DNA from: Hydrogenovibrio halophilus DSM 15072
GTDB taxonomy: Bacteria > Pseudomonadota > Gammaproteobacteria > Thiomicrospirales > Thiomicrospiraceae
DNA: 64,000 bases
NCBI RefSeq assembly: GCF_000384235.1
Contig: NZ_KB913033.1
Coordinates: 875,164 to 939,163, forward strand
Direction of reading: 5' to 3'
In this document: piece after piece, positions 11,975 through 62,479 of the stretch
Position numbering within the stretch: position 1 is the stretch's first letter
Layout: each line of letters starts with the position of its first letter
Position numbers and translations under genes: made by a program
Notes under the pieces: generated by a model
The model's database searches: none
Told to the model about the DNA's origin: nothing
What the model saw: only the letters and a program-made list of their open reading frames with translations

Positions 11975-13852
11975 TTAACGAGCCGTTTGATCCTTCTTGT
12001 GCTGATACATGCCCTGATCGGCCCGTGCCATTAGGGTGTCTACCTGGTCGCCGTCTTCTGGGAAGTGAACTTGGCCGAAGCTGATGCCGACCCAGACGGA
12101 CTCACCGGTCTCCAGCGTCACTGGGGCCATCACCCTTTCTTGCCAGTCTGCCAGCCATTGGTTCAACTGTGCTTCCTCTGGCGGGTCCGGTATCAGGGCC
12201 AGAAACTCGTCCCCGCCCAGACGCCCGAATACCGCCGTTTCCGGCATGGCCTGCTCCAGGCGCTGACACACGGTTTGCAGTACCAGATCGCCTGCGGCAT
12301 GGCCGTGCTCGTCGTTGATCTGTTTGAACCGGTTCAAATCCATCATCACCAGCGTCAGAGGGTCGCCGCACGCGACCCAATCTTCGAGCTGTTCGTAGAG
12401 CCCAAAGCGGTTGTAGACCCCGGTCAGGCTGTCGTGCCGCGCCTGATGGGCGAGTTGTTTCTGACTGACGCGCAAACGCTGGTTGGTTTCTTCCAACTGG
12501 CGGGTCCGCGCCTGAACCCGGTCTTCCAGCATGCGTTCGCTGTTTTTGAGTTGTTCCACCATCTGCTGACGGGTTTCCAATACCTGTTCGCGGGCTTCGT
12601 CCCGGGCCTTTTGCATGCTGTGCACCCGGTCGGCCAGTGCCAGTGACAGCAACACCATTTCAAACGCCGAGCCGATGAACAGCGCATTGTTGGTGATGCC
12701 GTTGGACGGCAGCACGCCGATGTTGTGCAGTGCGATCACCACCACTCCGGTCAGCAGCGACGCCCAGGCCAGCACGAAAAAACGCGCCCCCGGCACCCGG
12801 TCATACAAACTGATCGCCCCAATCGTCAACGCACTGAGCGCAAACACCAGCGACACCAGATTGACCGTGACGGCGGCCAGCGCATAAAAGCCAAGCGCCG
12901 CGCTGACAAAGCTGAACAGATACACCGCCGAAATCACCGGCATCAGCCAGCGCACCCGCAACCGTTTCGCCGTTTTATGCAAAAACCGCTGCGCAAACAG
13001 GGCCCCGAACATCCCGGCCACTGACACCCCGCCGGTCGGACTCAAATGCACCAACCAGGCCTGATCCGGCCACAAAAATTGCCCGGTCAGCCCCGACAGG
13101 CCAGCCTGTCCCACCGCCAGAAAGCCGATAAAGCCCACATAAATCAGATACAGCGAATCGCGCAGGGACAAAAACAGAAACAGGTTATAAAACATCAGCC
13201 CCAGCAACAGGCCGTAATACATCCCCAGCACCATGTAACTGGTCTGATCCGCCTGCCAGCGGGCTTCCGGTTGCCACAGCGTCACCGGTATGGTCAACGT
13301 GCCTTCGGAGCGGACTTCCAGATAAAACTCATACTCCGTGTCCGGCGACAACCGCATCGGGAACAGATGATGCCGATGCCAGCCGGGTTGTTGCGACCAG
13401 GGAATGCGATCACCGGAGTGCAACGCTTTCAACGGCTGACCCGACTGGCCCCAGTAAAGCGTGACCCAGTCCAGCGAACCGTGCGCCACCTCCAGCCACC
13501 AATCCGGCGGCAGCTGGCTGGCCGTTTTCAGCGTGCCGTGCAGCCAGATGGTGTCGGTGGTCAGGCCAAAATTGGTCGCCCCCTTGCCTTCGCCCGAAAG
13601 CGAACGAAACGCCCCCTCTGCCCGCAATTGGCGAACTTCGGACAAGGAAAGCGACGATTCCGCATCCCGCAACACACTCAACTGAGACGAAAGCCGCTGC
13701 TGAGTCTGATCACTGACCAATACCTGTTCCGAACCCGGTTCCGACGCCTGCACCGGGCCAGTCGGCCAAAACAGGGCCAACAGCACAAAGCCACCCATCA
13801 CCGCCCAAAAAAGCAGCGCAAAGCGGTCGGATGTCAAAAAACGTAGGTGCAT
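11975..13852 (-). CDS. 7TMR-DISM diguanylate cyclase (membrane GGDEF protein)
   Basis: From the ATG at 13852 the protein starts with a hydrophobic signal or anchor ending in PVQA. A periplasmic 7TMR-DISMED2-type sensory domain follows (about 40-180), then seven membrane segments (about 185-400), a coiled coil (about 400-465) and a GGDEF domain with the intact motif GRLGGDEF. It should make c-di-GMP in response to an extracytoplasmic signal. The inhibitory I-site (RxxD before GGDEF) is absent: the corresponding residues read PETA, so product inhibition may be lost. Upstream in-frame residues lack signal-peptide character. Confidence 0.87.
   Translation of the reverse strand: MHLRFLTSDRFALLFWAVMGGFVLLALFWPTGPVQASEPGSEQVLVSDQTQQRLSSQLSVLRDAESSLSLSEVRQLRAEGAFRSLSGEGKGATNFGLTTDTIWLHGTLKTASQLPPDWWLEVAHGSLDWVTLYWGQSGQPLKALHSGDRIPWSQQPGWHRHHLFPMRLSPDTEYEFYLEVRSEGTLTIPVTLWQPEARWQADQTSYMVLGMYYGLLLGLMFYNLFLFLSLRDSLYLIYVGFIGFLAVGQAGLSGLTGQFLWPDQAWLVHLSPTGGVSVAGMFGALFAQRFLHKTAKRLRVRWLMPVISAVYLFSFVSAALGFYALAAVTVNLVSLVFALSALTIGAISLYDRVPGARFFVLAWASLLTGVVVIALHNIGVLPSNGITNNALFIGSAFEMVLLSLALADRVHSMQKARDEAREQVLETRQQMVEQLKNSERMLEDRVQARTRQLEETNQRLRVSQKQLAHQARHDSLTGVYNRFGLYEQLEDWVACGDPLTLVMMDLNRFKQINDEHGHAAGDLVLQTVCQRLEQAMPETAVFGRLGGDEFLALIPDPPEEAQLNQWLADWQERVMAPVTLETGESVWVGISFGQVHFPEDGDQVDTLMARADQGMYQHKKDQTAR
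13054..13065. repeat. Palindrome variant ACCAGGCCTGAT (inside diguanylate cyclase gene)
   Basis: One base differs from consensus; read in the gene as Asp-Gln-Ala-Trp. Confidence 0.6.
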
Positions 13853-47215: not shown

Positions 47216-47289
47216 GGATTTTCACTGTTTTACTTGAAAGCCGACCAAAGCTTTGCTAACTTAAAAAAGCAATTGAAAAATTGATTCGC

Positions 47290-47397
47290 TCTCGGGGTGT
47301 GTGCCCAAACACTGAGACAGCCAAGCGAACCGTCCGACGGTTCCGGTGGCTGAACCCGCTGAACTTGATCTGGTTAAAACCAGCGTAAGGAAGAGAC
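47290..47397 (+). promoter_or_regulatory. TPP riboswitch (THI element) controlling thiC operon
   Basis: The conserved blocks are all present: GGGGTGTGTGCCC...CTGAGA (47294-47325), then CTGAACCCGCTGAACTTGATCTGG and TTAAAACCAGCGTAAGGAAG. Binding of thiamine pyrophosphate should shut down thiC. The leader continues for about 200 bases to the thiC ATG and includes further hairpins such as GGGTG ttcg CACCC that may act as the expression platform. Confidence 0.95.
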
Positions 47398-47577
47398 CTC
47401 CCCCCGCTTTGGGTGTTCGCACCCGGTTTGCGTCGGGGTCGATGTGTCGACACCTGACGTGAAGCCGCCGATTCCGCTTCGTTTCCGTCTGTGTCCACTC
47501 AGTTTGATGTTCCGATCTTGCCGGTGTTTTTCACCTGCAGAATCGTCCTTTCTTCGCGGTTTTTTCCTGGCTTTTAA

Positions 47578-56917: not shown

Positions 56918-56965
56918 CGAGTTACCCTCAATTTTAAAATTCGTAATAAAACCCAAGTTCAATCA

Positions 56966-57167
56966 TACCCGAATGTTTCATGAATTTGTGCTGAGATTGC
57001 GCAGTGCCTTGGTTTCACAAGGAAATTTTCTCGACTTACCCCTTCGGGCGTCGAGTTCTTCGTTTCGAAGAAGCGTCGTATCCGTGATTACGACCGACTG
57101 AGAAAATATTTCTTGTGGAATCAAGGAGCAAGCAAGGTCGGTGCAAATTTGTGAAATATTCGGGTTA
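56966..57167 (+). mobile_element. MITE-like repeat element, copy 1
   Basis: About 202 bases bounded by imperfect terminal inverted repeats: TACCCGAATGTTTCATGAAT at the left and the complement of ATTTGTGAAATATTCGGGTT at the right. An inner core (about 57014-57124) matches the copy at 62256-62479 with few differences by eye, in the opposite orientation. TA dinucleotides at the ends suggest a TA target. There is no transposase gene, so it would need one in trans. Confidence 0.65.
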
Positions 57168-62255: not shown

Positions 62256-62479
62256 TAACCCAGAAAATTCATAAAATTATGCACCATCTCGCTTGCCCCT
62301 TGATTCCACAAGAAATATTTCTTCAGTCGGTCGTAATCATAGATACGACACTTCTTCAGAAACGAAGAACTCGACGCCCGAAGGGGTAAGTCGAGAAATT
62401 TCCTTGTGAAAACAAGCTCCTGCGCGATCTTGGCGCAAATTTATGAATCGAAGAAACCGAAGGTAAATTTCCGGGCTAA
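62256..62479 (-). mobile_element. MITE-like repeat element, copy 2 (inverted)
   Basis: About 224 bases with end repeats TAACCCAGAAAATTC and the complement of a TTTCCGGGCTAA end. The inner core (about 62300-62411) is the reverse complement of copy 1 with few differences by eye. One arm is about 20 bases longer than in copy 1. It fills the divergent space between mnmC and the carboxymuconolactone-decarboxylase-like gene. Confidence 0.65.

Follow-up and report, generated by a model that had tools for sequence, protein, structure and literature searches.

Two inverted palindromic elements near ompA and mnmC

Two related palindromic elements are found in inverted orientation about 5 kb apart in the 64-kb window, as we call the whole stretch of Hydrogenovibrio halophilus DNA analyzed here (Table 1). 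Copy 1 lies upstream of ompA, whose likely start codon follows ~50 bp downstream of the element, while copy 2 separates mnmC from a divergently oriented AhpD-like gene. An earlier note, made from the letters of the sequence, had pointed out the pair; both copies are indeed present, but the limits that it gave were slightly too wide and were corrected to elements of 197 and 217 bp, respectively.

Table 1. Positions of the two elements and their parts within the window.
Feature	Position	Strand	Description
MITE copy 1	56968..57164	+	197 bp; 161-bp unit + 36-bp micro-hairpin insertion; CCCGAA...TTCGGG
Left flank of copy 1, CATA	56964..56967		expected target duplication, decayed
Right flank of copy 1, TTAA	57165..57168		
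Micro-hairpin CTCGACTTACCCCTTCGGGCGTCGAGTTCTTCG nested in copy 1	57030..57062	+	TTT flanks at 57027-57029 and 57063-57065
MITE copy 2	62259..62475	-	217 bp; 161-bp unit + 36-bp micro-hairpin + ~19-bp second module; subfamily B ends (CCCGGAAATTT)
Left target duplication of copy 2, CTAA	62255..62258		
Right target duplication of copy 2, CTAA	62476..62479		
Micro-hairpin nested in copy 2	62363..62395	-	33-nt sequence identical to that in copy 1; TTT on both sides (minus strand)
Second small module, ACCttcGGT-TTCTTCGATTC	62445..62464	-	inside the terminal repeat of copy 2; grammar as in the micro-hairpin: hairpin + TTCTTCG + NTTC

The two copies share three inverted arm matches, namely 57067-57164 with 62260-62357 (80% identity), 57024-57066 with 62359-62401 (98% over 43 nt), and 56977-57028 with 62396-62447 (83%), and this similarity is far beyond chance. 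It had been described as a highly similar core; the similarity is real, but it resides mainly in a nested 33-nt hairpin element, here termed the micro-hairpin, that had not been recognized. Both copies are predicted to fold into a near full-length hairpin (z -10.6 and -4.9), and no Rfam match was found at either of them. Elsewhere in the window, Rfam identified a TPP riboswitch at 47283-47408. The suggestion that the elements supply promoters was not borne out, since a promoter scan of the two copies returned 1 and 0 weak sites against a chance expectation of ~0.5, i.e., no enrichment. Given their positions beside ompA and the mnmC/AhpD-like genes, effects of the two copies on transcripts are possible.

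Independently of the two elements, the 12-bp palindrome ACCAGGCCTGGT occurs at 24 exact sites between positions 1591 and 63146 of the window (29 with one mismatch; 0.15 expected), that is, about once per 2.7 kb, a density reminiscent of HIP1 or DNA-uptake signals. A 20-kb stretch of Thiomicrospira sp. WB1 contained 4 copies, and loci from other relatives none to two. Among the papers listed by a literature search, there was no bacterial one that uses this palindrome.

The MITE family and its probable IS30 parentage

The pair is part of a large family. With copy 1 as the query, BLAST gave 71 matches in the genome that it comes from, with E-values down to 1e-106. In all, ~40 units of 161 bp (CCCGAA...TTCGGG) are present in 2.36 Mb, and once the ends were defined, 38 copies could be scored along with a few degenerate ones; these genome-wide statements rest on searches. 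The basic unit starts with CCCGAA or CCCGGA, ends with TTCGGG or TCCGGG, and is palindromic over almost its entire length. Two subfamilies, A (CCCGAATGTTTCATGAATTTGTGC) and B (CCCGGAAATTTCATAAATTTGCGCC), were distinguished, and the window holds one of each. Terminal inverted repeats are present, as 66 end-pattern matches were obtained in the genome and none with the reversed-pattern control. The elements are 158–226 bp long, multicopy and without a transposase, the last of which had been noted for the two window copies, and the description as MITE-like thus holds. Their lengths are quantised (161, 179–180, 197, 216–217, and 226), and the increments are separate small insertions. Ultra-short derivatives of 30–60 bp, consisting of scarcely more than two terminal repeats, were seen at five loci (L110, L111, L112, L115, and L117), and a ~60-bp mini-derivative lies at position 267290 of the window genome (G000). 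The MITE was not found in plasmids, and its ends had no exact matches among the IMG/VR viral contigs.

Identical 4-bp flanks were observed in 30 of the 61 copies compared in this and related genomes, while permutation of the flanks among copies gave a mean of 7.8 and a maximum of 18 in 20,000 trials. The duplication stops at 4 bp, with a fifth matching base in only 1/61 copies, and the duplicated motif is TTAA, TTAG, CTAA, or CTAG (YTAR) in 26 of the 30 cases. It is intact at copy 2, whereas the flanks of copy 1 no longer match. The TA reported earlier at the ends is therefore present, but as the center of this duplication and not as the duplicated end itself.

Thiomicrospira sp. WB1 (L071) has no element at either insertion site: its sequence is ...CATAGTAATACC... 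on the ompA side and ...ATTATAAAGTAAGG... between mnmC and AhpD, and its gene order is as in the window. Both insertions thus postdate the split from this relative. The MITE is patchy among relatives, being carried by 8 of 56 genomes. In one of these (G026), a MITE copy is 93% identical to the query, while the AhpD gene is only 71% identical, for which horizontal spread or recent movement would be the simplest reading.

End-pattern searches in the relatives led to contig 40 of another gammaproteobacterium (G055), which contains an 867-bp element (L109) with the ends of the MITE and CTAT/CTAG flanks. Pieces of an IS30 transposase were recognized in this element (NF033563 matches; Pfam HTH_38, 1.8e-11), and the C-terminal piece shows 52–68% tblastn identity to annotated IS30-family transposases. 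The resemblance of both its arms to the window MITE goes past the terminal repeat, with scores of 23 and 22 where shuffling of the interiors gave at most 19 and 18. G055 also has a MITE (L093) that corresponds to L109 with the central part deleted. An insertion sequence with matching ends, as sought by the earlier note, is thus represented by this remnant, and of the two things that the note said would refute it together, a lone pair and a lack of matching transposon ends, neither was observed. L109 was the only case of an IS30 transposase between such ends. Counting against the assignment, it is broken, comes from a different family of the class, and is at most 74% identical to the window MITE family, and the searches turned up no complete IS30 element whose ends match exactly. 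IS30 members usually generate duplications of 2–3 bp, so that the 4 bp seen here are on the long side. The IS30 elements of two further genomes (G002 and G003) were rejected as parents, since the inverted repeats near them differ from the MITE ends, and no full-length parent was detected at the lone end matches in the window genome (69488, 184390, and 352112).

We conclude with high confidence that this first layer is an ordinary one, a new MITE family derived from IS30. The MITEs would have become non-autonomous when an IS30-family insertion sequence lost its transposase gene, and an IS30-type transposase probably moved them in trans, recognizing the CCCGAATGTTTCATRAATTTG ends and duplicating the 4-bp YTAR target. 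This enzyme appears to have since disappeared from the window genome. No IS30 transposase was found there, and the copies are therefore likely immobile at present unless served by another enzyme.

The nested micro-hairpin

The micro-hairpin consists of CTCGAC...GTCGAG followed by TTCTTCG and occupies T-rich sites. It is 33 nt long, or 23–25 nt in short versions with loops of 4–6 nt. The main insertion is CTCGACTTACCCCTTCGGGCGTCGAGTTCTTCG plus TTT, and a MITE gains 36 or 28 bp per micro-hairpin. Within the MITE copies it is found at no fewer than four positions and in both orientations: in some copies it follows ...GTTTT and precedes CACAAGG, in others it stands between ...AATTTT and CGAAGAAG, at two loci (L038 and L183) it is reversed in the other arm, and at another (L004) the short version is present.

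The same hairpin occurs in unrelated surroundings. It was found in members of a second MITE-like family, whose ends are of the GAGACCTTTGCACGAG type, within a CGAACCAAAAAAGCAC repeat of which the window genome has four near-identical copies, in the middle of other palindromes (L153 and L158), and within a CTGAACTTGTTTCAGGAT repeat adjoining an empty copy of that repeat (L160). Solitary hairpins occur as well, and so do tandem arrays of different versions (L169, L155, L053, and L167). As to these hosts, the second family is palindromic, has ends GAGACCTTTGCACGAG...CTCGTGCAAAGGTCTC and many copies in G064, and was located at L078 (around 13250-13560), L040, L165, and L209-L218; the CGAACCAAAAAAGCAC repeats with the embedded hairpin (L122, L123, L129, and L130) lie beside CATCCCGACCGAAGCGGAGGGATC-type repeats. 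At L053 (1484-1535), two short hairpins of 27 nt each stand in tandem, close to where a 71-aa ORF starts and a HipA-like ORF ends.

Altogether, 76 instances in ~49 contexts were sampled by pattern searches, with six look-alikes that had unrelated flanks and no conserved tail excluded as chance, and the reversed-pattern control gave zero. The 6-bp stem is perfectly complementary in 72/76 instances, with two positions variable and covarying (C-G/T-A at position 3 and A-T/G-C at position 5), while shuffling of the arms among instances left a mean of 34.4 perfect stems and a maximum of 47. On the 3' side, TTT is present in 64/76 instances, which no search pattern had required; the 5' TTT was seen in only 43/76, a count that is biased because one pattern required it.

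Within the family, the strict pattern was matched in 16 of 63 genomes, with zero for the control throughout, and the looser pattern in 25 of 63, the highest copy number being 39, in G064. When 369 gammaproteobacterial genomes were sampled, 12 of the 365 outside the family had a match, one each except G043 (two, overlapping), and most of these had unmatched stems or atypical loops. Since the outside matches are isolated and chance-like, the micro-hairpin is confined to this lineage. It had no exact matches among the IMG/VR viral contigs, and none of the papers listed by a literature search contained the sequence of either the MITE or the micro-hairpin in connection with bacterial repeats.

The best explanation of the data as a whole, which we regard as very probable, is an IS30-derived MITE family into which a second, smaller repeat has inserted in several copies. 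This repeat, a hairpin with a 6-bp stem plus TTCTTCG, would have inserted 3' of T-rich sites and be bounded on its 3' side by TTT. The T-rich sites with 3' TTT, the stacked versions, and the dependence on the hairpin suggest that a single-stranded DNA or RNA intermediate is used, via which the repeat may spread autonomously. That it moves independently is held with moderate confidence. The full proposal of a 23–33-nt mobile hairpin, tied to no known transposase, which uses T-rich/3' TTT sites, prefers palindromic DNA, and hitch-hikes on MITEs between genera, is more tentative, and we put it at somewhat below even. Some findings count against this picture: TTT stands on the 5' side of only 43/76 instances, certain boundaries in G061 look more like replacement via short homology than like clean insertion, and one position of the second MITE family is occupied by differing versions of the hairpin. 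Recombination that exchanges versions at one position could accordingly account for part of the spread.

Alternative explanations and known systems

The earlier note had also considered that the two copies might allow the intervening 5 kb to invert. In favor of such a switch, the inverted arms match at 98% over as many as 43 nt; however, the unchanged gene order in Thiomicrospira sp. WB1, with no element at either site, marks the two as independent insertions and gives no sign of an inversion or of its fixation. Moreover, ~40 further copies make the pair unexceptional, and no recombinase was seen within the interval, so that we consider a switch highly improbable. An unlikely, though less remote, explanation is that the elements are structural or regulatory RNA/DNA repeats of the ERIC/REP type that serve the host in mRNA stability or termination and have spread incidentally. 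Their strong folding, the two-sided changes in 12/49 pairs of the MITE consensus, where 98% of cells pair, and the resemblance of a hairpin with a T-rich tail to a terminator speak for such a role. Yet the end repeats, the precise 4-bp duplication, the empty sites, and the IS30 parent account for the palindrome with no need of a host function, and the elements are patchy among relatives. A terminator scan of the window copies did return 2–3 sites against ~0.5 expected, but none of these is the micro-hairpin itself.

For the micro-hairpin, movement as a REP element by a RAYT (Y1 tyrosine) transposase was weighed. REP and REPIN sequences are hairpins of 20–40 nt dispersed in many copies (PMC3116915, PMC3733652), and the size, single hairpin, and conserved tail of the micro-hairpin are REP-like; in addition, several carriers encode Y1 transposases (G064, G061, G034, G075, and G001). 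On the other hand, eight carriers (G000, G005, G011, G018, G030, G032, G062, and G068) have no Y1 transposase, and near the two RAYT genes that were inspected, both in carriers, no copy of the hairpin lies within ~1.5 kb, while another palindrome (AAAAGGGGACGCTACCC) brackets the genes. The micro-hairpin also differs from REP/REPIN in having no linked Y1 transposase and, in place of the GTAG or CGTC tag (PMC3733652), the conserved tail TTCTTCG. Together these findings make a REP/RAYT origin quite unlikely, and the Y1-free carriers and the other palindromes at the two RAYT loci inspected were grounds for rejecting IS200/Y1 as the mobiliser. RAYT-type Y1 genes with AAAAGGGGACGCTACCC palindrome flanks are located at L231 and L232, in two Thiomicrorhabdus genomes.

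The IS30-derived MITE has several relatives in kind. Correia elements (CREE/NEMIS) of Neisseria are gene-less, MITE-type sequences of 100–155 bp with 26-bp end repeats, many copies, and transcribed hairpins (PMC3898611). The window MITE is likewise short, gene-less, multicopy, and bounded by end repeats, but Correia elements duplicate TA, whereas this family duplicates YTAR and has ends matching an IS30 remnant, and the sequences are unrelated. With the ERIC, RUP, and Coxiella-type MITEs it shares a short, palindromic, intergenic, non-autonomous, and IS-derived nature; it differs in parent IS and sequence and in being regularly interrupted by a second mobile hairpin.

It is this second layer that is unusual. 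The micro-hairpin most resembles the small dispersed repeats (SDRs) of the cyanobacterium Nostoc, which Elhai et al. are said to have described in 2008. These are reportedly 21–27 nt long, with a conserved hairpin and compensatory changes, embedded in mini-transposons and in themselves, confined to one lineage, and linked to no known enzyme. The micro-hairpin shares the nesting in mini-transposons and in itself, the compensatory stem, and the confinement to a lineage, but has another sequence, a length of 23–33 nt, a TTCTTCG tail, and a T-rich target, and it belongs to a gammaproteobacterial family (Thiomicrospira/Thiomicrorhabdus).

If mobile, the micro-hairpin would rank among the smallest known mobile DNAs. 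To our knowledge, how such small repeats move without a recognizable enzyme has been an open question since the cyanobacterial SDRs. The MITE family is a natural target library, with dozens of near-identical 161-bp copies filled or empty at defined positions, and the comparison of filled with empty copies exposes the exact insertion footprint of a ~30-nt element. With close relatives that carry from none to ~40 copies, movement of the micro-hairpin becomes testable in this family by comparison and by experiment.
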